The notes under the pieces were generated by a model that worked only from the letters and a program-made list of their open reading frames with translations, was not told the origin of the DNA and searched no databases. The position numbers and the translations under genes were made by a program. Shown here piece by piece: positions 10,082-62,820 of a stretch of DNA of 64,000 nucleotides; within the stretch, counting starts at the first letter, position 1, and each line of letters opens with the position of its first letter. Source of the DNA: Planctomycetota bacterium (GTDB taxonomy: Bacteria > Planctomycetota > UBA11346). The stretch lies in contig BJHQ01000001.1 in assembly GCA_014193115.1 (NCBI GenBank), positions 124,001 through 188,000 of the forward strand, written 5' to 3'.

Positions 10082-10472
10082 AAGTGCCGTCCCCCGGAGC
10101 GCCGCTCCACCGGAGCGCCGCACTCCGTACGGCCAGATCTCGGAGCGCCGCACTCCGTGCTGCCCAGACCACCAGAGACGCTCTCCCCATGGCCACGGCG
10201 AATCATCGGCAGCGACTCCGGAACCCCGCTAGGCCATCACCAAGCCGCGCACAATAAAGCCGCATCAAGCCTGGGAGCGCCGAGCACCAGCTCGGCTAGG
10301 CATGGAGCGCCAGCTCGGCTTGAATGCAGTCGTTCCGCGAACTTGCACTCACCAGCCGCACGGAGTGCGGCGCCCCGGGCTCGACCTGGGAGCGCCGAGC
10401 GCCAGCTCGGCTTGGGTGGAGCCGTTCCGCGAACGTGCGTTCACCAGCCGCACGGAGTGCGGCGCTCCGAGT
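10082..10472. repeat. Interspersed palindromic repeats, families A and B
   Basis: The stretch between the PDZ gene and the LpoB-like gene holds family-A elements (core GCCGCACTCCGTGCGGC) near 10098, 10139, 10353 and 10446, in both orientations. Family-B elements (GAGCGCCGAGCGCCAGCTCG or close variants) lie near 10274, 10302 and 10390. A 90-bp-scale duplication is also visible: TCGTTCCGCGAACTTGCACTC near 10330 returns in altered form near 10423. I see no gene here. Confidence 0.85.
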
Positions 10473-26375: not shown

Positions 26376-26668
26376 CCAAGCCGAGCAGGCGCTCGTCACT
26401 ACGCGACAACCCGGAGCGCCGCACTCCGTGCGGCTGGTGAACTCCAGCGATGTGAAGTGCCCAGCCCAATCAAGCCGAGCAGGCGCTCGGCGCTCCCAGG
26501 CCACCCGGAGCGCCGCACTCTGTGCGGCTGGTGAGCTCCAGCGGCGTGAAGTGCCCAGCCCAATCAAGCCGAGCAGGCGCTCGTCACTACGCGACAACCC
26601 GGAGCGCCGCACTCCGTGCGGCTCATGAGCTCCAGTGGCGTGAAAAGCCCAACCAATTCAAGCCGAGC
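26376..26668. repeat. 94-bp-period array combining family A and family B palindromes
   Basis: CCGAGCAGGCGCTCG or its variants recur at about 26381, 26475, 26569 and 26663, an exact 94-bp period. Each unit also contains a family-A element (GGAGCGCCGCACTCCGTGCG) and a conserved connector (CCAGCGGCGTGAAGTGCCCA). The array sits directly upstream of ftsK (26239-26704) and contains no gene. Confidence 0.9.
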
Positions 26669-26704
26669 AGCCGCTCGGCGCCGCCAAGAATTCGGCGCTT
26701 GGGC

Positions 26705-27910: not shown

Positions 27911-28003
27911 GCCGAACGATACGGCGCGACAGGCGTGGTGTTGGCACTGCGAACCCGGAGGACCACTGAATAGCGATCCTTGGTTCGCCGTCTCGGCCTC
28001 TGA

Positions 28004-28705
28004 TCATTTCAGCCGGTGCAGTTCGAACAATTCCGCACCCATCTCCTTGACGCTTTCGTTGCGTACCCGGGGCGGGGCGAAGCTGACGGCGCGGGCGTTG
28101 GTCAGCGAGTTGGGATCCATCGCATCGATGAGTCCACCTTGCTTGGCTTCATAGGACCGGGCGGCGTCGTAGGCGATCAGGGCGTAGCGCCAGGACAGAG
28201 CCGAGAAGCAGCTGACCACGATCTCGGATTGCTCCTTCCGCGGTTTCCCAGGGATTTCATAACGCTTCAGGGCTGCATGGATGAAGGCGTGGATGTTCTC
28301 GACCTCGCCCTCCAGGTTGGGATTGTCGCGCTGGGACAGCGTGCGGTTTTCCAGGGTGATCGTTGTCGGATTGCCGCCCATGCGCAGTTCTGCGGTGGGG
28401 ATGATGCCTTGGCCGACGGCCACGTTGTGATCGTACCAGATCTGGTACTCGCGTTCGGTGTGCATCATCGGCAGCCCGGCCGGGGTGATGACCACCTGGA
28501 TCGTCTGCGGCGGTTCGACCACCTGGGTGGGCTTGGCTGGCGGCGAGTTGCCCTTGTTGGTCGGCAGGATGCTAGAGATCGATTTCTCTTCGCTGGTGAA
28601 CTTGGTGGTGAGCATGAAGAACAGCAGCAGGAGCATGATGCAGTCGATCATCGGGACGAGATCGATGCGGCCCTTTTCGATGGCGTGATCTGAGTCGCTG
28701 GACAT
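28004..28705 (-). CDS. ExbD/TolR-family protein, long form, copy 2
   Basis: A 233-aa ExbD-like protein, a partner of ExbB in a proton-driven energy-transducing complex. One membrane helix (about 15-35) carries the essential Asp in LVPMIDCIMLLLLFFML. The periplasmic part is longer than in typical ExbD (~140 aa). It is about 85-90% identical to the protein at 29559-30257. The start follows the preceding short-form exbD by 21 bp. Second gene of the shorter exbD pair, which has no exbB of its own. Confidence 0.92.
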   Translation of the reverse strand: MSSDSDHAIEKGRIDLVPMIDCIMLLLLFFMLTTKFTSEEKSISSILPTNKGNSPPAKPTQVVEPPQTIQVVITPAGLPMMHTEREYQIWYDHNVAVGQGIIPTAELRMGGNPTTITLENRTLSQRDNPNLEGEVENIHAFIHAALKRYEIPGKPRKEQSEIVVSCFSALSWRYALIAYDAARSYEAKQGGLIDAMDPNSLTNARAVSFAPPRVRNESVKEMGAELFELHRLK

Positions 28706-28726
28706 GGCTGGGCTTTCTGTGCGGGG

Positions 28727-29335
28727 TTACCTGTCGCCAGGTTTGCGGGTGGTGAACTCCAGGTTCACGAACGGTTTCTGCGGGACCTTGGGCTGCATCG
28801 ACGCCCCGCTTTGGTCAGGCCGAGGGTTGACCGAATCGACCAGCAGCATCTGGATGTCCTGGACGACGCGGTACTCGGTATCGGCATCGGCGCGGACCTC
28901 GACGATCACAGAGGGCAGCTGCAAAACTCCGCCCCCGGGAGCCTTGGCGCCATTGGGATCGTCGAACGTGCGCGAACGGTCATAGACCAGGTCGAGCTTG
29001 TCACGCAGCTTCTGATAGCCGACGAAGTCCTGTTCGTTCTGGCCCGACGAGATCCACGGCTGGTCCGAGTTCCAGGCGATGGCATTGCGCGGAATGTTGC
29101 CGGCGGCGGTGCTGCCGAAGACGTTGACCACCACCCGGATCCAATTCGCACCGAGTGGTGGTGGCACCTGTCCACTCCGGGTCGGCGGTACAGTGATCTG
29201 TTCATGGCGCTGTTCGACGCTGATCCGGCCGACCAGCATGAAGAACAACAGGATCAGAAACACGCAGTCGATCAGGGGCACCAGGTCCAGGTGCCCATCG
29301 TCGGTGCTGGCGAGCAAGTGCCGTGGTCGGCGCAT
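28727..29335 (-). CDS. ExbD/TolR-family protein, short form, copy 2
   Basis: A 202-aa ExbD-like protein with the membrane helix DLVPLIDCVFLILLFFMLV (Asp conserved) and a periplasmic domain containing VIVEVRADADTEYRVVQDIQ, the normal TolR/ExbD core. It is about 80% identical to the copy at 30279-30884. GGAG before ATG 29335 sets the start. It begins the second exbD pair, downstream of a terminator that closes the first set, so this pair probably has its own promoter in 29336-29450. Confidence 0.92.
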   Translation of the reverse strand: MRRPRHLLASTDDGHLDLVPLIDCVFLILLFFMLVGRISVEQRHEQITVPPTRSGQVPPPLGANWIRVVVNVFGSTAAGNIPRNAIAWNSDQPWISSGQNEQDFVGYQKLRDKLDLVYDRSRTFDDPNGAKAPGGGVLQLPSVIVEVRADADTEYRVVQDIQMLLVDSVNPRPDQSGASMQPKVPQKPFVNLEFTTRKPGDR

Positions 29336-29445
29336 GGGCGTCTCCGGGAAGCGGTTCCCGGAAGAACGCGGCCGACGAGCCAAGGTTCACGGCACCAGGA
29401 ATCAAACGGGCGGGGACAACTTGGCGATCGCCATCATTCAGCAAA

Positions 29446-29476
29446 TGAAAAACGCCAGGGAGATCCCTGGCGTTTT
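29446..29476 (-). terminator. Terminator between the two exbD sets
   Basis: AACGCCAGGG pairs with CCCTGGCGTT around a short AGAT-type loop, followed on the minus strand by a T-run (complement of GAAAA at 29446-29450). The A-run and T-run flank both sides, so it could work in both directions. It would end the exbB-exbD-exbD message. Confidence 0.85.
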
Positions 29477-29558
29477 CACATTCGAAAGTGGCCGCTACAT
29501 CAACCAGTGATCGGCGCTGGGGACCACCTCTGGTGAGGATCGCCGCAGACGGCAGGAA

Positions 29559-30257
29559 TTACTTCAGCCGGTGCAGTTCGAACAATTCCGCGCCCATCTC
29601 CTTGACGCTGTAATTGCGCACCCGGGGCGGGGCGAAGCTGACGGCGCGGGCGTTGGTCAGGGAGTTGGGATCCTTCGCATCGAAGATCGCGCCTTGCTTG
29701 ACTTCGTAGGACCGGGCGGCGTCGTAGGCGATCAGGGCGTAGCGCCAGGACAGGGCCGAGAAGCAGCTGACCACGATCTCGGATTGCTCTTTCCGCGGTT
29801 TCCCAGGAATTTCATAACGCTTCAGGGCTTCATGGATGAAGGCGTGGATGTTCTCGACCTCGCCCGCCAGGTTGGGATTGTCGCGCTGGGACAGCTTGCG
29901 GTTTTCCAGTTTGATCGTTGCCGGATTGCCGCCCATGCGCAGCTCGGCGGCCGGGATGATGCCTTGTCCGACGCCCACGTTCTGGTCGTACCAGGTCTGG
30001 TACTCGCGTTCGGTGTTCATCATCGGCAGCCCGGCCGGAGTGATCACGATCTGGACCATCTGCGGCGGTTCGACCACCTTGTCGGGTTTGGCCGGCGAGG
30101 TGCCCTTGTTGGTCGGCAGGATGCTGGAGATCGACTTTTCTTCGCTGGTGAACTTGGTGGTCAGCATGAAGAACAGCAGCAGCAGCATGATGCAGTCGAT
30201 CATCGGGACGAGATCGATCCGGCCCTTTTCGATGGTGTCATCTGAGTCGCTGGACAT
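29559..30257 (-). CDS. ExbD/TolR-family protein, long form, copy 1
   Basis: 232 aa, nearly identical to the long-form copy at 28004-28705, with the same membrane segment and intramembrane Asp. Differences concentrate in the region after the helix (residues about 53-70) and a few scattered positions. It is the last gene of exbB-exbD(short)-exbD(long), ending 83 bp before the terminator. Having two unlike ExbD subunits next to one ExbB suggests a hetero-oligomeric stator. Confidence 0.92.
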   Translation of the reverse strand: MSSDSDDTIEKGRIDLVPMIDCIMLLLLFFMLTTKFTSEEKSISSILPTNKGTSPAKPDKVVEPPQMVQIVITPAGLPMMNTEREYQTWYDQNVGVGQGIIPAAELRMGGNPATIKLENRKLSQRDNPNLAGEVENIHAFIHEALKRYEIPGKPRKEQSEIVVSCFSALSWRYALIAYDAARSYEVKQGAIFDAKDPNSLTNARAVSFAPPRVRNYSVKEMGAELFELHRLK

Positions 30258-30278
30258 GGCTGGGCTTTCTGGGCGGGG

Positions 30279-30884
30279 TTACTTCTCGCCCGGTTTCCGG
30301 GTGGTGAACTCCAGGTTCACGAACGGTTTCTGCGGGACCTTGGGCTGCATCGACGCCCCGCTCTGGTCAGGCCGCGGGTTGACCGAATCGACCAGCAGCA
30401 TCTGGATTTCCTGGACGACGCGGTATTCGGTGTCCGCGTCGGCGCGGACCTCGACGATGACATAGGGCAGCTGCAAAATACCGCCGCCGGGCACCTTGGT
30501 GCCGTTGGGATCGTCGAATTTGCGCGAACTGTCATAGACCAGGTCGAGCTTGTCGCGCAGCTTTTGATAGCCGACGAAGGCCTGCTCATCCCGGCCCGAC
30601 GAAACCCACGGCTTGTCCGCGTTCCAGGCGATGGAATTGCGTGGGATCTTGCCGGCGGCGGTGCTGCCGAAGACATTGATCACCACCCGGGTCCAATCCT
30701 TGTTCTCGATCATCTTCAGCGCCGTCTTGGTCGGCGGCACGGTGATCTGCTCATTGCGCTGATCGTAGCTGATCCGGCCAACCAGCATGAAGAACAGCAG
30801 GATCAGGAACACGCAGTCGATCAGCGGAACCAGATCCAGGTGTCCGTCATCGGCCTCGGGCTTGAATCGTCGACTGCGGGACAT
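30279..30884 (-). CDS. ExbD/TolR-family protein, short form, copy 1
   Basis: 201 aa with membrane helix DLVPLIDCVFLILLFFMLV and a periplasmic core like the copy at 28727-29335. The most divergent stretch is residues about 50-65, directly after the helix. It lies 70 bp after exbB and 21 bp before the long-form exbD, so the three are likely one operon. Confidence 0.93.
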   Translation of the reverse strand: MSRSRRFKPEADDGHLDLVPLIDCVFLILLFFMLVGRISYDQRNEQITVPPTKTALKMIENKDWTRVVINVFGSTAAGKIPRNSIAWNADKPWVSSGRDEQAFVGYQKLRDKLDLVYDSSRKFDDPNGTKVPGGGILQLPYVIVEVRADADTEYRVVQEIQMLLVDSVNPRPDQSGASMQPKVPQKPFVNLEFTTRKPGEK

Positions 30885-38342: not shown

Positions 38343-38861
38343 GTGACCAAGCAACCGGACCCGGGCCTGACGATCCGCATGGCCACACCCGACGATGCCG
38401 GGACCCTGGCCGAGATGGTCGCCGCCTTCGCCGCCTATGAACGCCTGCCCCACCAGTCGACCGCCGAGACCCTGCGCCGCGAACTCGCAGCCCCCGACCG
38501 GGTGATCGAGGCCGCCCTCGCCTTCATCGGCGACACCGCCGTCGGTTTCGCCGTGTTCTTCCATTCGTTTTCGACCTTTGCCGGCCGGCGCGGCCTGTAC
38601 CTCGAAGACATCTATGTGCGCGAAACCTACCGCAATCGCGGCATCGCCACCGCCCTGCTCCGCCACGTCGCCAGATTGGCAGTGGAGCGCGACCTCGGGC
38701 GGGTGGAGTTCACCGTCCTGCTGTGGAACACCGTGGCGATCGAATTTTTCGAGACCCTCGGCGCCACCCCGAACAGCGCTTGGACCACCTACCGCCTGAC
38801 CGGCGAATGGCTGCGCAAGCTGGCCAGTGAAGGAGAAGCTGGTCGGACCGACAGGATTTGA
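38343..38861 (+). CDS. GNAT-family N-acetyltransferase
   Basis: A 172-aa GNAT enzyme transferring acetyl from acetyl-CoA. Visible features are LTIRMATPDDAGTLAEM, GFAVFFHSFSTFAGRRGLYL, the acetyl-CoA loop RNRGIATALLRHV, and VLLWNTVAIEFFETLGATP. It resembles the diamine/spermidine acetyltransferase (SAT-like) group, but I would not fix the substrate. GGAGG seven bases before GTG 38343 decides the start over the upstream in-frame ATG. The 3' end runs 22 bp into the tRNA-Pro gene on the opposite strand. Confidence 0.88.
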   Translation: MTKQPDPGLTIRMATPDDAGTLAEMVAAFAAYERLPHQSTAETLRRELAAPDRVIEAALAFIGDTAVGFAVFFHSFSTFAGRRGLYLEDIYVRETYRNRGIATALLRHVARLAVERDLGRVEFTVLLWNTVAIEFFETLGATPNSAWTTYRLTGEWLRKLASEGEAGRTDRI

Positions 38862-38917
38862 ACCTGCGACCTTCTGCGCCCAAGGCAGACGCTCTAGCCA
38901 AGCTGAGCTACGGTCCG
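38840..38917 (-). tRNA. tRNA-Pro (anticodon TGG), CCA encoded
   Basis: A full cloverleaf on the minus strand. The acceptor CGGACCG pairs with CGGTCCG, the D-stem GCTC pairs with GAGC, the anticodon stem TCTGC pairs with GCAGA around loop CTTGGGC, and the T-loop is TTCAAAT. The discriminator A and the CCA end are encoded. Anticodon TGG reads proline codons. The 3' end overlaps the GNAT stop region. Immediately upstream is the array of partial copies. Confidence 0.95.
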
Positions 38918-38950
38918 ATCGATGCGGGGCCGGATCATCTGGAAATCCAG

Positions 38951-39298
38951 GCTGCGGCAAGCCGCAGCCGTCGCTCGGCTCGCCTCCCCGCCTGGGGAGT
39001 CGAGGTCCGGCTTCGCCGTCCTGCCCTCGCTCTCCAGGCTGCGGCAAGCCGCAGCCGTGGCTCGGCTCGCCTCCCCGCCTGGGGAGTCGAGGTCCGGCTT
39101 CGCCGTCCTGCCCTCGCTCTCCAGGCTGCGGCAAGCCGCAGCCGTCGCTCGGCTCGCCTCCCCGCCTGGGGAGTCGAGGTCCGGCTACGCCGTCCTGCCC
39201 TCGCTCTCCAGGCTGCGGCAAGCCGCAGCCGTCGCTCGGCTCGCCTCCCCGCCTGGGGAGTCGAGGTCCGGCTTCGCCGTCCTGCCCTCGCTCCCCTT
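38951..39298. repeat. Four tandem 87-bp repeats upstream of tRNA-Pro
   Basis: Units start GCTGCGGCAAGCCGCAGCCG at 38951, 39038, 39125 and 39212 (period exactly 87). Each contains the hairpin GGCTGCGG-CAA-CCGCAGCC and CCCCGCC...GGGGAGTCGAGG. Copies differ at only one or two bases. The unit is also the core of the two 164-bp units that follow. Confidence 0.93.
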
Positions 39299-39342
39299 CT
39301 GCGCCCAAGGCAGACGCTCTAGCCAAGCTGAGCTACGGTCCG
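39295..39342 (-). pseudogene. 5' half of tRNA-Pro (48 nt), first partial copy
   Basis: Identical to the first 48 nt of the functional tRNA-Pro (acceptor 5' strand, D-arm, full anticodon arm and AGG). It then breaks off into repeat sequence, so the T-arm and acceptor 3' strand are missing. Anticodon TGG is retained. It cannot fold as a tRNA. Confidence 0.93.
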
Positions 39343-39375
39343 ATCGATGCGGGGCCGGATCATCCGGAAATCCAG

Positions 39376-39582
39376 GCTGCGGCAAGCCGCAGCCGTCGCT
39401 CGGCTCGCCTCCCCGCCTGGGGAGTCGAGGTCCGGCTTTGCCGTCCTGCCCTCGCTCCCCTTCTGCGCCTAAGGCAGACGCTCTAGCCAAGCTGAGCTAC
39501 GGTCCGATCAATGCGGGGCCACATCATCTGGAAATCCAGGCTGCGGCAAGCCGCAGCCGTCGCTCGGCTCGCCTCCCCGCCA
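39376..39582. repeat. Two 164-bp higher-order repeat units with tRNA halves
   Basis: The 87-bp-type core begins at 39212, 39376 and 39540, a period of 164 bp. Each tRNA 5' end lies exactly 34 bp before the next core (38917 to 38951, 39342 to 39376, 39506 to 39540), so each unit equals tRNA half plus spacer plus core. The array ends near 39582, and 39583-39696 holds nothing recognisable except a palindrome CCGGTGATCACCGG near 39683. Confidence 0.9.
39459..39506 (-). pseudogene. 5' half of tRNA-Pro (48 nt), second partial copy
   Basis: Same 48-nt segment as the first partial copy, but with one change: the anticodon loop reads CTTAGGC, turning TGG into TAG. The T-arm is again missing. The change shows that this copy is not under selection as a proline tRNA. 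Confidence 0.92.
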
Positions 39583-39696
39583 CGGGACGACGTCTTGAAC
39601 AATTTTCAGGAGATCCTTGACCAAGCCACTCAGGATACTGAGCAAGCGGAGCATCTCCCCGGTGTATTCCTTTGATCTGGCCGCCGGTGATCACCG

Positions 39697-52129: not shown

Positions 52130-52153
52130 ATAAGTAAACATAGGTTTACTTAT
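52130..52153. promoter_or_regulatory. Perfect 10-bp-arm inverted repeat, likely operator or leader hairpin
   Basis: ATAAGTAAAC, four bases, then GTTTACTTAT. It is strikingly AT-rich for this DNA and lies directly before the start of the 200-aa barrel protein and across the stop codon of the ScpA fusion. The size and symmetry fit a dimeric repressor site, or an RNA hairpin over the initiation region. Confidence 0.55.
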
Positions 52154-55100
52154 CGGTCAAGGCCCAGGTCCGCAAACGCCCCGTGCGGTCGCTCCACGGA
52201 CTCGCTGACGGGATCGTTGCCAGGGCTTCGAACAGGGCGACGGGCGTGGTCGCGACCTCGCGCACCGGCAGCACAGCCTCAGCCCGATCGCCACCAGCGG
52301 TCAGCACCAACCGGTAGTCGCCAGGTGATCGACCAGCGATCCACTCGGTAAGCGGCACCGGCCACGAACGGGACAGGCCGTGTTCGGCGGGCTCGCAATC
52401 GCCCGGCTCGCCCACCACCAGCTGCGCCACCGTCGCACCAGCGGCATCCTGCAACTGCACCGTGGCGCCCGGCCAGCGGTGGGCCCGGGCGGCCAGGGCG
52501 CCGCCGCGGATCGCGATCCACAGCCCGCTGTCCCGGTGCGGTACAGCCACCGTCAGCGCCGCCGCCGCTGGCAAATCATCGAGTTTGGCTTCGGGATGGT
52601 CAGCTGGCCAAGCGGCCGCGACTGAGATCTGATAGGCCGTGCCGGGCACGAACGGACCGCGCAGCGCAAGGCCACCGCCCTCCTGCACCGCCTGGAACGG
52701 CACCGGTGGATCGATCCAGATCTGCTTGGCGATCACCTGCGGATCAGCGAAGGTCCCCGCGCACACCAGATGGACCGTGGGATCGCCGTGGGCAGGCGAG
52801 GCCGCGGCGACAGCGGTGGGCACCAGGCGATGGCCGGCGGCGATGGTGGCGCTCCAAGCAGTTTCCAGACCGATCGGTCCTGCGGCTCCGGCAAAACCGA
52901 CAGGAAGCGCCAGGGTGAGCGATCCGCGCGGCGATCCGTTGCTGGGCGGACGGAGATCCAGATCGATGGCGGCGGATTCCGCCGAGGTCACCGCGCTCGT
53001 CTGCCAGCCGCTGGCGCTGAGCCCCGCTGCCAAGCGGGCAGGCGACATCGGCTGGTTGGCGGCGATCCGCACCCGGGTAGCGCCATCGGCGGTAAAGCCG
53101 GTGACGGTCGCACTGCGCACGGCAAACAATTCGCCGCGCATCCGGTAGCAGAGATCCGTCGCCAGCCGGAATCCATCGGCGGTACGCACCGGATCGGCGG
53201 GCACCGTCACCGCGATCGGCGTCGCCAAAGGCCACGGTTGGCTCGGAGTGAACTCCGCTGTGGATCGATCAATCCAGCGCCAAGCGCCAGCGATGGCTGG
53301 CTCGAAACGCGCCGCCAATGGCGCCGGTTGCTCAATTTTTTCAGGAAGAATCGGCAGATTGAAGCGCAGGCGCACCGGCTGGCTGCCGCTGAGCACCGTG
53401 CCCTCGGCCGGCGGATCGATGGTCGTCAGCACCGCCCGCGGCGGAGACAGCAGCCACGTCGCGCCGACCCCGATCCCGGCCGCAGCGGCCAGGCCCGCGG
53501 CGAGCTGCCAGCGGCGGAGGTTTCGGGGAGGGGCGGGCATGGGTCGGAGTGCTGGCTGGGGTTGCGTCGTGGTGGCGGTGAATGGTGGAAGGGGATCGGG
53601 TGGTGGAGCCGCCCCCGGCGGCGGCGGATCCGGCGGCGGCTCGAGTGGATCCGGCAGCCGTGCTGCGGGCGGCGGCGAGGTCACAACCGGTGGCTCGCTG
53701 ACAACCGGCGGCTCGCTGATCTGAAGCGGCGCAATCGCAGGCGATTCGCTGACGTCGCTGGCTTCGCTGACTTCGCTGGCTTCGCTGGGCGATGTCGCTG
53801 TTGCGCCAGGCCGGACGGAGTCCGGCGCTCCGGGTTCGGCCTCCGGCGGTTCGGGTTCGGCCTCCGGCGCTCCGAGTTCGGCCTCCGGCGCTGCGAGCTC
53901 GGCCCTGGGAGCGCCGAGCGCCAGCTCGGCTTGGGTTGGCGAGCTGAGCGGTTGGATCAGCGAAGCGGGTTCCTCGCGATCGGCGAGACGCGGAACAACC
54001 GGCGGCTCGCTGATTTGAAGCGGCGCGATTCCAGACGATTCACTGACTTCGCTGAGCGATGTCGCTGGTGCCTTCGGCCGGACGGAGTCCGGCGCTCCGA
54101 GTTCGGCCTCGGCCTCGGCCTCGGCCCTGGGAGCGCCGAGCGCCAGCTCGGCTTGGGTTGGCGAGCTGAGCGGTTCGATCAGCGAAGCGGGTTCCTCGCG
54201 ATCGATGGGTCGTGGATCAACTGGTGGCTCGTTGATTTGAAGCGGCGCGATTCCAGACGATTCACTGGCATCGCTTGGCGATGTCGTTGGTGTGTCTGGC
54301 CGGACGGAGTCCGGCGCTCCGAGTTCGGCCTCGGCCTCGGCCTCGGCCCTGGGAGCGCCGAGCGCCAGCTCGGCTTGGGTTGGCGAACTGAGCGGTTGGA
54401 TCAGCGAAGTGGGCTCCTCGCGATCGGCGAGACGCGGAACAACCGGCGGCTCGTTGATTTGAAGCGGCGCGATTCCAGACGATTCACTGGCATCGCTTGG
54501 CGATGTCGTTGGTGTGTCTGGCCGGACGGAGTCCGGCGCTCCGAGTTCGGCCTCGGCCTCGGCCCTGGGAGCGCCGAGCGCCAGCTCGGCTTGGGTTGGC
54601 GAACTGAGCGGTTCGGTCAGCGAAGCTGGTTCCTCGCGATCGATGGGACGCGGATCAACCGATGGCTCGTTGAGACGAAGCGGCGCGATCGCAGGCGATT
54701 CGCTGACTTCGCTGGTTTCGCTGGCTTCGCTGGGCGATGTCGCTGGTGGGCCAGGCCGGACGGAGTCCGGCGCTCCGGGTTCGGCCTCCGGTGATCCGGC
54801 CTCGGCCTCGGCCCTGGGAGCGCCGAGCGCCAGCTCGGCTTGGGTTGGCGAGCTGAGCGGTTCGATCAGCGAAGCGGGTTCCTCGCGATCGATGGGTCGT
54901 GGATCAACTGGTGGCTCGTTGATTTGAAGCGGCGCGATTCCAGACGATTCACTGGCATCGCTTGGCGATGTCGTTGGTGTGTCTGGCCGGACGGAGTCCG
55001 GCGCTCCGAGTTCGGCCTCCGACGCTCCGAGTTCGGCCTCCGGCGCTGCGAGTTCGGTCTCCGGCGCTCCGAGTTCGGTCTCCGGCGCTCCGAGTTCGGT

Positions 55101-56942
55101 CCTGGGAGCGCCGAGCGCCAGCTCGGCTTGGGTAGAGTTGAGCGGTCCGATCAGCGAAGCGGGTTCCTCGCGATCGGTGGGACGCGGATCAACTGGTGGC
55201 TCGTTGATTTGAAGCGGCGCGATCTCAGGCGATTCGCTGGCATCGCTGGAAGATGTCGCTGGTGCCTTCGGCCCGGAGCGCCGCACTCCGTGCGGCCCAA
55301 ACCACAGCGCTTCCGGAACCACGAACAGCGGTGCAGCCAGCCCGGAGCGCCGCACTCTGTGCGGCCCGAACCACAGCGCCTTCGGCGCGGCGTCTGACCC
55401 ACCTCCTGCGGACAGGATAACCTCGGTTGGCAAGCTCGGTTCGGAGGGCTGCTGCGGCATTCCGGCCGATGGCTCCAGTGTCGCTGGCGCAACGACCACC
55501 GCAGGCTGTGTCGGCGCTGCGATTTCCGCCGTCGCTGTGCTTTCCGCCGTCGTGGCGCTTTCCGCCGGCACCATGATTTCCACCGGCGCCACGCTTTCCG
55601 CAGCCACCGCTGGCTGAGCCGTCGCCGTACTTTCCGCTGGCGCAGAGCTTTCAACCAACGCTTTGCTATCCGATACCGCAGCACTTTCTGTGGCCACTAC
55701 CAGCGCAGCGTTGTCCGTGGCTGCTGGCGGCTGCACCGTGGCCGCTGGCGGCTGTGCCGGGGCGGCAGGTTCCGCAGCAGGCTCCGCCACCGCCACGACC
55801 ACGGGCGGTGGTTCCGGCGGGCGCAATTCGGGATGCAGCGTGAACCAGTGGGCGAGGAACGCCGCCTCGGGATCCGCGGTCTGGCGCAGGAGCGGGTCGA
55901 TGGCGCAGGCGGCGTCCAGTTCGGCGACGAGTCGATCGACCTCGGTGAGCGGGGCCGGCTCCGGGTCGCTGGTGTCCTCGGTCTCGTCGGCTGGGGCTGG
56001 CGTCCAACCCGGCGGAGCGGTCCAGCTCGCCAACGGCAAAGAACGGCGCCGCCAGGGCAACGGCTCGGGCTCCAGTTTTTCGTCCACCGGCGGCAGGCGG
56101 TCGGACGGGTGACGATACCGCAGCTGGATCAGGCCGAACTGCTCCAGCTGGCGGATGCGCAGCAGGCGTTGGCGGGCGGCCTCCAGGCTGGCCATCAAGG
56201 TGGTGACGCGGTGGAGCGGGCTCGGCCGGTCGGCGTTCAGCTCGGCCAAGGTCGCTTCCTGGCGCCGGGCCAGCTCGGCTTCGAGTTCGGCGATGCGCAC
56301 GCCCAGCGGCAGGTCATCGACCGCGACGGTGCGTTCCCGGGCTCCGCCGATCCGCCGCATCAGCAGGTCGAAAGCGTCGAACAGCGCCCCGGCGTGCAGC
56401 TCGCCGAGATCCAGTCCGGCCAGCTCCTCGGGATCATCAGGCACCTGCTCGCGGAACTGGCGGCCGATCCGGCCGTGATGGTCATTCTCCAAGCGGTCGA
56501 GGATCTCGGCGGCGTCTTTAAAGGCGCGAAACGCGAGCAGCCGCCGGACCAGGTCGGCTCGGGGATCGTCGAAGCGCTCCTCTTCGGCGGCGCTGACCCG
56601 GCCTTCCGGGGGCGGGGCGATGGTCCGTGCCTTCAATTCCAGCAGTGAGGTCGCCATGACCAGGAAATCGCCGGCGATCTCCAGATCGAGATCGGCCCAG
56701 CCGTGGACCGCGGCGACGAACTGGTCGGCGATGTCGGCGATCGGGATGTCGTTGATGTCGACTTCGGCCCGCCGGACCAGGAACAGCAGCAGATCCAGGG
56801 GACCGCTGAACACATCAAGCGCGACGGTGCAGGCGAGGTCGCCGCCCTGGCCCAGTTCGCCGGCTTCACCGACCTCGGCGACGCTGCTGGATCCGCCCGG
56901 ATCAGCGGCGCCGGGGCTCAGGTTGTCCGGGCCGCCGGCCAT
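52146..56942 (-). CDS. scpA: ScpA (condensin kleisin) fused to repeat linker, membrane helix and A2M-like periplasmic domain
   Basis: A 1,598-aa frame. Residues 37-278 are a whole ScpA: N-terminal VALDVFSGPLDLLLFLVRRA and DINDIPIADIADQFV, MATSLLELKARTI, and a C-terminal winged helix (VTTLMASLEAARQRLLRIRQ). ScpA is usually ~250 aa, cytoplasmic, and closes the SMC ring. Here ~860 residues of Pro/Ala/Glu-rich linker follow, including six tandem units of 72-96 aa. One membrane helix lies at about 1143-1163 (WQLAAGLAAAAGIGVGATWL). The ~435-aa tail has a segment like the first domain of bacterial alpha-2-macroglobulins (VRLRFNLPILPEK, GAWRWIDRSTAEFTPSQPWP) but no thioester region. Start ATG 56942 is uncertain. 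No scpB is adjacent. Two fused genes or a genuine fusion are both possible; the frame is open throughout. Confidence 0.8.
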   Translation of the reverse strand: MAGGPDNLSPGAADPGGSSSVAEVGEAGELGQGGDLACTVALDVFSGPLDLLLFLVRRAEVDINDIPIADIADQFVAAVHGWADLDLEIAGDFLVMATSLLELKARTIAPPPEGRVSAAEEERFDDPRADLVRRLLAFRAFKDAAEILDRLENDHHGRIGRQFREQVPDDPEELAGLDLGELHAGALFDAFDLLMRRIGGARERTVAVDDLPLGVRIAELEAELARRQEATLAELNADRPSPLHRVTTLMASLEAARQRLLRIRQLEQFGLIQLRYRHPSDRLPPVDEKLEPEPLPWRRRSLPLASWTAPPGWTPAPADETEDTSDPEPAPLTEVDRLVAELDAACAIDPLLRQTADPEAAFLAHWFTLHPELRPPEPPPVVVAVAEPAAEPAAPAQPPAATVQPPAATDNAALVVATESAAVSDSKALVESSAPAESTATAQPAVAAESVAPVEIMVPAESATTAESTATAEIAAPTQPAVVVAPATLEPSAGMPQQPSEPSLPTEVILSAGGGSDAAPKALWFGPHRVRRSGLAAPLFVVPEALWFGPHGVRRSGPKAPATSSSDASESPEIAPLQINEPPVDPRPTDREEPASLIGPLNSTQAELALGAPRTELGAPETELGAPETELAAPEAELGASEAELGAPDSVRPDTPTTSPSDASESSGIAPLQINEPPVDPRPIDREEPASLIEPLSSPTQAELALGAPRAEAEAGSPEAEPGAPDSVRPGPPATSPSEASETSEVSESPAIAPLRLNEPSVDPRPIDREEPASLTEPLSSPTQAELALGAPRAEAEAELGAPDSVRPDTPTTSPSDASESSGIAPLQINEPPVVPRLADREEPTSLIQPLSSPTQAELALGAPRAEAEAEAELGAPDSVRPDTPTTSPSDASESSGIAPLQINEPPVDPRPIDREEPASLIEPLSSPTQAELALGAPRAEAEAEAELGAPDSVRPKAPATSLSEVSESSGIAPLQISEPPVVPRLADREEPASLIQPLSSPTQAELALGAPRAELAAPEAELGAPEAEPEPPEAEPGAPDSVRPGATATSPSEASEVSEASDVSESPAIAPLQISEPPVVSEPPVVTSPPPAARLPDPLEPPPDPPPPGAAPPPDPLPPFTATTTQPQPALRPMPAPPRNLRRWQLAAGLAAAAGIGVGATWLLSPPRAVLTTIDPPAEGTVLSGSQPVRLRFNLPILPEKIEQPAPLAARFEPAIAGAWRWIDRSTAEFTPSQPWPLATPIAVTVPADPVRTADGFRLATDLCYRMRGELFAVRSATVTGFTADGATRVRIAANQPMSPARLAAGLSASGWQTSAVTSAESAAIDLDLRPPSNGSPRGSLTLALPVGFAGAAGPIGLETAWSATIAAGHRLVPTAVAAASPAHGDPTVHLVCAGTFADPQVIAKQIWIDPPVPFQAVQEGGGLALRGPFVPGTAYQISVAAAWPADHPEAKLDDLPAAAALTVAVPHRDSGLWIAIRGGALAARAHRWPGATVQLQDAAGATVAQLVVGEPGDCEPAEHGLSRSWPVPLTEWIAGRSPGDYRLVLTAGGDRAEAVLPVREVATTPVALFEALATIPSASPWSDRTGRLRTWALTDK
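53909..55145. repeat. In-frame tandem repeats built on family-B palindromes inside the ScpA fusion
   Basis: The element CCGAGCGCCAGCTCGGCTTG recurs six times. Intervals between copies are 222, 222, 216, 249 and 288 bp, all divisible by three. It is read on the minus strand as TQAELALGAPR. Family-A elements at about 55275 and 55341 are read as GPHGVRRSG-type peptides. The DNA elements are the same as those in intergenic regions. Confidence 0.92.
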
Positions 56943-57149
56943 GGCGGTATCTGTAGGGACCACGGACTGGGGGCCAGGGGCCAGGGCCAGGGCCTGGGGC
57001 CAAGGCCAGAGGTTAGTGGCCAACGGGCCGTGGTGCGCATCGCCCTGCGATTGCCTGGAATCGGGAATCGGCGCACGATCCAAAAAGCGAAGTTCATCAA
57101 AATTTGTGCGTGATGCTCGGTCTGGATCCGATCGACACCGCAGGATCAC

Positions 57150-57290
57150 AGCATAGACGACCATGATTGAGGAATGAAAATAATACTATCACGATAGTCG
57201 TATGAATTCTATTCGATTTCTATTACCACGTCTGATGTTCCCGGTTGACTTGCGGAATAAATCGTCAAGATGTGAACACGAACCACGGTG
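57150..57290. other. AT-rich region upstream of ilvB
   Basis: Between the ScpA fusion and ilvB (56943-57354), the first part is a CAGGGCCAGGGCC-like low-complexity tract (about 56965-57010). The second is markedly AT-rich and includes the small palindrome ACTATC-AC-GATAGT (about 57183). Divergent promoters are expected here, but I see no pair of boxes convincing enough to mark. No T-box or other riboswitch pattern was recognised. Confidence 0.45.
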
Positions 57291-62552: not shown

Positions 62553-62820
62553 CGGGAGCGCCGCAGGAGTGAGCGCGGCAGCGCCGAGCGCTGGCTGGGA
62601 GCGCCGAGCGCCAGCTCGGCAGGGTTGGGTTTCCGTGTTCCGGCCGGCGACGATGTCGGAGTGGGATCACGCCAGGTTTCGCAGGCCGAGCAGGCGCTCG
62701 GCGCTCCCAGGTTTCGGCATCCGGCCGGCGACGGCGTCGGCGTTGGATCACGCCAAGTTTCGCAGGCCGAGCTGGCGCTCGGCGCTGCCAGGTTCGGCGC
62801 TGCCAGGTTCGGCGCTGCTC
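62553..62820. repeat. Family-B palindromes and an 81-bp tandem duplication
   Basis: GGCCGGCGACG starts two units at 62642 and 62723 (period 81). Each runs through GATCACGCCAGGTTTCGCAG and ends in a family-B palindrome (GCCGAGCAGGCGCTCGGCGC and its variant GCCGAGCTGGCGCTCGGCGC). Further family-B copies lie near 62580 and 62600, and a CCAGGTTCGGCGCTG pair lies near 62790-62815. It fills the gap between trpA and tatC. Confidence 0.9.

Follow-up and report, generated by a model that had tools for sequence, protein, structure and literature searches.

Short palindromes that are otherwise nearly always intergenic recur inside the coding sequence of an ScpA fusion gene in this genome, which raises the question of how they came to be translated there and how they multiplied. 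In the present study, we analyzed a 64-kb stretch of contig C1 (the window) from a 5.25-Mb genome (G000; 36 contigs, 94% complete), and compared this genome with that of a sister species (G001). We consider it very probable that REPs with a GGAG head entered the linker of the ScpA gene in frame and were then amplified by tandem duplication.

The fusion gene is an uninterrupted reading frame with the following parts.

52146 to 57164, minus strand: ScpA fusion gene, 1672 aa, with an ScpA domain, a long low-complexity REP-bearing linker, one predicted transmembrane helix, and a weak Ig-like C-terminal part
56118 to 56828, minus strand: ScpA domain, residues 113-349 (NCBIfam NF000995, 1.8e-39; Pfam PF02616, 1.2e-24)
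53445 to 53504, minus strand: predicted transmembrane segment, about residues 1221-1240 (Kyte-Doolittle 19-residue value of 1.75 at residue 1221)

The orthologue of this protein reaches a Kyte-Doolittle maximum of 2.4 at residue 930. The fused gene was the only ScpA match found in G000. In relatives, several of the frames over the ScpA match are approximately 970-1540 aa long and others approximately 400 aa, and some genomes have both kinds. The relatives found in named public genomes are distant (33-40% identity) and mainly belong to Planctomycetota MAGs. The repeat-rich part of the linker comprises about 550 aa, and the linker is rich in Pro (19%), Ala (17%), Glu (12%), and Ser (11%). A structure model of 551 linker residues had a mean pLDDT of 39 with 0 residues above 70, which lends weak support to disorder because the model was built without an alignment. 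The linker is probably disordered, with no predicted fold. The initial annotation proposed that the palindromes are tolerated as disordered peptide; the composition and the lack of a predicted fold agree with the disorder, and the insert is presumably neutral, just as the fusion protein is presumably expressed.

The linker contains 14 palindromes: six of family B (GGAGCGCCGAGCGCCAGCTCGGC), six of A2 (GGAGCGCCGGACTCCGTCCGGC), and two of family A. A2 is a variant of family A with one base changed on both arms (GCAC/GTGC to GGAC/GTCC); it is present in every linker unit, where it is translated as GAPDSVRP, and was previously overlooked.

53908 to 53930, plus strand: family B REP, translated from the minus strand as AELALGAP
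54130 to 54152, plus strand: family B REP, pattern match with 0 mismatches
54352 to 54374, plus strand: family B REP, pattern match with 0 mismatches
54568 to 54590, plus strand: family B REP, pattern match with 0 mismatches
54817 to 54839, plus strand: family B REP, pattern match with 0 mismatches
55105 to 55127, plus strand: family B REP, pattern match with 0 mismatches
53810 to 53831, minus strand: A2 REP, read as GAPDSVRP
54077 to 54098, minus strand: A2 REP, pattern match
54299 to 54320, minus strand: A2 REP, pattern match
54521 to 54542, minus strand: A2 REP, pattern match
54755 to 54776, minus strand: A2 REP, pattern match
54986 to 55007, minus strand: A2 REP, pattern match
55275 to 55296, plus strand: family A REP, opposite to the gene, 0 mismatches, read as FGPHGVRRSG
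55344 to 55365, plus strand: family A REP, 1 mismatch, read as FGPHRVRRSG; a 69-bp tandem duplicate of the copy at 55275 (repeat family D20)

The six B copies, their spacings (222, 222, 216, 249, and 288 bp), and the minus-strand reading TQAELALGAPR in each are exactly as first described, with 0 mismatches in 6/6 copies. The coordinates initially reported all hold within 3 bp, the second family A copy starting at 55344 rather than at 55341.

As had been claimed, the palindromes in the gene and those dispersed outside genes are members of the same families; the match was found in clusters of the window and genome-wide. The whole genome holds 278 copies of family A, 256 of family B, and 18 of A2, six of which are in the ScpA gene. 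Since reversed control patterns yielded 0 copies genome-wide against 278 and 256 for families A and B, chance is excluded. A, A2, and B share a common plan of a GGAG head and a CGCC-stem, with a stem of 7 bp and a loop of 3-4. The conserved core, approximately 27-31 bp in length, begins at about CxCGGAG in A and CCTGGGAG in B and extends as far as the hairpin does; the sequence outside it is unconserved. Copies cluster in tandem and as inverted pairs, and the distances within inverted pairs vary in G000.

The name of REPs refers to their extragenic position. We called genes with a home-made caller, with the palindromes masked, in stretches of contigs C1, C3, C4, C5, and C6 (2.18 Mb in total, 84.5% coding). 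These stretches contain 345 copies in 96 clusters, 81 of which are wholly extragenic despite the high coding share (binomial P about 3e-50). The other 15 touch a called gene; some of these calls are doubtful, and several were set aside because of low scores or REPs near the predicted start. Since 81/96 clusters lie wholly outside genes, the bias toward extragenic positions is extreme, which makes the ScpA gene exceptional. Four clusters in the window are all outside called genes.

2524 to 2851, no strand assigned: family A cluster, five copies in a 32-bp tandem and two inverted
10112 to 10468, no strand assigned: mixed A/B cluster
26413 to 26684, no strand assigned: mixed A/B cluster with 94-bp tandem units
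62598 to 62788, no strand assigned: family B cluster, inverted arrangement

The window also has repeats of other kinds. A tandem array at 38859-39587, with periods of 87 and 164 bp, surrounds a GGCTGCGGCAAGCCGCAGCC palindrome that differs from families A and B. At 28003-30853, segments of 125-300 bp recur approximately 1.55 kb apart with 87-95% identity, which suggests a duplicated gene or domain.

Conversely, the palindromes may have arisen as an ancestral coding repeat in the ScpA gene and have reached intergenic DNA from there at a later time. The gene does hold 14 copies, including six of the 18 A2 copies found genome-wide. However, the flanks of the gene have left no trace in the hundreds of extragenic copies, in which conservation ends at the element, family A surrounds a transposase gene, and the sister species has B elsewhere and none in its ScpA gene. 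We regard this origin as extremely improbable, and hold to entry of the elements into the gene from outside.

A candidate for the mobilizing enzyme is encoded in the same genome. The NCBIfam model for the REP-associated tyrosine transposase (RAYT; NF047646, cut-off 80 bits) scored above its cut-off at three G000 genes, on contigs C6 (82.3 bits), C7 (89.2 bits), and C11 (83.8 bits), which have an invariant NHVHVL motif in common. All three have GGAG hairpins of their own on the flanks: family A at C6, GGAGAGGCGAGCCCCAGCTCGCC at C7, and GGAGCGCAGGCTTCAGCCTGC at C11. The C6 gene (in locus L050, G000:C6:231000-243000) lies amid some 26 family A copies, most of them in an array with a period of 147 bp. 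Further family A copies were noted in the upstream frame of this gene. An 832-aa frame beside it, full of family A, was rejected as a spurious gene extension by the period-147 array. No RAYT gene lies directly beside any copy of family B, the stem of which, by eye, most resembles the C7 repeat. Among the RAYT genes above or near the cut-off in G000 and G001, five are flanked by GGAG hairpins of one sequence and one by GTAG; the seventh (G001:C12) is unclear. Separately, a second kind of Y1 transposase (in locus L046, G000:C5:225000-237000) was observed amid repeats that translate as GQRPG, PGRCPGL, and GNALG in several frames and are perhaps another palindromic family.

Family A, A2, and B are imperfect palindromes of 20-40 bp in many copies, mostly outside genes, with a flanked RAYT gene in the case of family A only. 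Judged from these sequence features, they are REPs by behavior and RAYT linkage. The published tags (GT[A/G]G; GTAG/CGTC) are absent from A, A2, and B and from the repeats at the other two G000 RAYT genes. Because their head is GGAG, we describe them as REP-like and GGAG-tagged, and not as members of the GTAG and CGTC superfamilies. Their movement would most likely be catalyzed by RAYT.

The initial annotation read the six B copies, all spaced by multiples of three, as elements that insert into coding genes. The alignment of the linker does not bear out six insertions.

53863 to 55019, minus strand: tandem array, approximately five 222-bp units that each contain one A2, one B, and a non-palindromic flank (unit alignment; a sixth, diverged unit extends to approximately 55304)

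The units of approximately 222 bp include non-palindromic sequence (REEPASL, INEPPVDPRP) and are 64-100% identical over 223 bp. Every unit has one A2 and one B, in constant order and orientation. The alignment indicates that the linker copies arose through tandem duplication of the whole unit. Since the unit repeats with its flanks, six insertions do not follow from the multiple-of-three spacing, which is explained by tandem duplication under frame constraint. Six, or even fourteen, separate insertions of a mobile palindrome might be envisaged since the elements do enter genes, and clusters elsewhere have several copies in both orientations. However, separate insertions do not account for the shared flanks or the constant arrangement, and the unit alignment largely refutes them; we consider them very unlikely. 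Concerning the earlier statement that the elements spread or duplicate, in-frame entry is seen in other genes (described below), whereas the B copies of the ScpA gene multiplied by tandem duplication. Some units at 53863-55101 also have 21-bp repeats (GAPETEL, GAPEAEL) that start like the A2 head, as if the first 10 bases of A2 had been copied several times, and unit lengths differ through them.

Tandem repeats are difficult to assemble and this genome is in 36 contigs, so that the array may be a false repeat expansion. However, the units differ among themselves and the frame is open through the array, and the cases in a YkgJ-like gene, in YbeY, and in the sister species are independent of it. 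An assembly artifact is, therefore, hardly credible to us. A more substantial alternative to mere tolerance is that selection keeps the palindromes, either as a peptide spacer or as a DNA or RNA hairpin. Across the six units, only 1/57 columns vary in the B and A2 blocks against 27/99 in three flanking blocks (Fisher P 2e-5, with columns of tandem copies that are not independent), and REPs are also present in the same linker of the sister species. However, gene conversion or recent replacement leads to the same pattern, and the contrast is weak at third codon positions alone (1/19 against 9/33). Either selection or homogenization may lie behind the pattern; that selection keeps the palindromes appears unlikely to us.

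Insertion itself is more clearly visible in other genes. A YkgJ-like Cys-cluster protein (C3:180734-181819) has five B copies in both orientations, which add approximately 75 residues. Four relatives provide an empty site: they match the protein to residue 78-80 and resume at 160-161, with 0-3 bp between. In the alignment, the insert falls between CSQY and GCLAHAGRPLACRLYPLG. YbeY (C4:246611-247201; TIGR00043, 2.1e-28) has approximately 41 extra residues with three B copies, located ahead of the conserved LVVRLVDDAE segment. The comparison with orthologues that lack the inserts, which was suggested at the outset, thus gave a clean empty site for the YkgJ-like gene and delimited the insert in YbeY. 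B copies are also present in the C-terminal tails of RbfA and an aquaporin, and HrpB has a weaker B copy in a segment that is longer than in its solved relative. These alignments indicate that in-frame insertion of REPs into genes is real.

Genic B copies are mostly read as GSAERQLG (same strand) or AELALGAP (opposite strand), in a small sample and with the register chosen after seeing it. A strict single codon register for all genic B copies was rejected: ScpA, aquaporin, YkgJ-like, YbeY, RbfA, and HrpB share one, whereas other registers occur in a 537-aa membrane protein on C5. No relatives of the latter were found in the ten genomes searched. The phase of genic copies is, hence, biased toward one register with one clear exception, neither clearly random nor exclusive, and a relationship exists between the coding repeats and the extragenic copies; both alternatives that the initial annotation had set against its own reading, random phase and coding repeats unrelated to intergenic copies, are borne out at most in part.

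The sister species followed a parallel course. Its ScpA orthologue is 55% identical in the ScpA part and its linker is without A or B. Instead, this linker has four copies of the GTAG-headed GTAGCGCCGGCTTCAGCCGGC, arranged as an inverted pair that recurs in a 204-bp tandem duplication, in frame. This family has 47 copies in G001 and none in G000 except one two-mismatch match of the C11 type. The RAYT gene on G001:C11 is flanked by GTAGCGCCGGCTTCAGCCGGC, and two other RAYT genes of G001 by GGAG hairpins. REPINs are replicating units of two inverted REPs a short distance apart. In G001, inverted pairs of B and of the GTAG family have a nearly fixed spacing of about 90-102 bp. Two species accordingly hold different REPs in the linker of the same gene, each amplified in tandem. 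The linkers are not alignable between the species, such that they do not reveal exactly where the elements inserted, and the same site may not be claimed. The linkers of two other relatives (L037 and L038) have no tagged palindromes among their inverted repeats. We tentatively raise the possibility that REPs have repeatedly landed and been amplified in the linker of this ScpA fusion, which is apparently tethered to the membrane. In the two sister species, different families, each with a RAYT of its own, may have entered the linker independently and been amplified in tandem, such that mobile hairpins served as raw material for a long disordered kleisin tether.

Similar elements have been described elsewhere. 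The present palindromes resemble REP/RAYT systems (REPs, REPINs, and BIMEs) as tagged hairpins of 20-40 bp in hundreds of copies, mostly extragenic, in inverted pairs and tandem clusters, with flanked RAYT genes. However, the 5' tetranucleotide of REPs is GT[A/G]G (PMC3686654) and it is GGAG here, and tandem amplification also occurs inside a coding region. REPs with a GTAG or CGTC tag were reported in 2013 in frame within genes of known function, with clusters that encode up to 82 aa; furthermore, recB of two Xanthomonas species has different REPs at about the same site (PMC3733652). Our case shares the in-frame position within genes and differs in its tag and lineage, the six-unit tandem array within approximately 550 aa, and the empty site that four relatives show for one target gene.

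The likeness to Rickettsia palindromic elements that was initially drawn does not extend to identity. Those elements are also in-frame palindromes tolerated in conserved genes (here YkgJ-like, YbeY, and others), which indicates similar working and not membership. They are about 105-146 bp long and were found in frame in Rickettsia genes in an older report (PMC2229807), and intragenic RPE-4 and RPE-6 have a CGTC tag (PMC3733652). Neither this tag nor this length fits the GGAG head and the core of approximately 27-31 bp, which come with a RAYT gene as in REPs. Coding MITEs such as ERIC and Correia are likewise small non-autonomous elements fused in frame to genes; however, they are about 100-200 bp long, most with terminal inverted repeats (PMC2229807), whereas each of the present elements is one hairpin of about 30 bp with a link to RAYT genes.

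Mobile DNA that is translated as protein is rare but not unprecedented: REPs inside genes, including grouped ones (PMC3733652), and in-frame RPEs (PMC2229807) were already known. In a search that lay mostly outside the subscription literature, we found no papers on RAYT with GGAG or on RAYT with tandem duplication in coding DNA. The GGAG tag, the tandem amplification in coding DNA, the parallel insertion in the ScpA fusion, and the empty site in four relatives appear to be new.

We propose the following course. A, A2, and B are GGAG-headed DNA hairpins with an intergenic position as the rule, and the RAYTs of the same genome most likely mobilize them. The fast-evolving linker probably received an A2/B pair and one or more A copies with the frame intact, a step that we infer since there is no alignable empty ancestor. 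Tandem duplication would then have expanded the segment with A2, B, and flanks to six units and doubled the A copy, which resulted in approximately 550 aa of repeat-rich linker. Frame-keeping duplications may have survived because the linker tolerates changes in length. We count against this explanation the GGAG head as opposed to the published GT[A/G]G or CGTC, the lack of a RAYT gene beside B, the unalignable linkers, and the putative nature of movement by RAYT.

With sister genomes that carry different REPs and RAYTs, filled and empty sites, and a coding array, the steps from the insertion of a mobile element to an amplified protein segment become traceable. The GGAG tag bears on target recognition by RAYT. 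Moreover, a membrane-tethered kleisin, if real, would be notable in itself.
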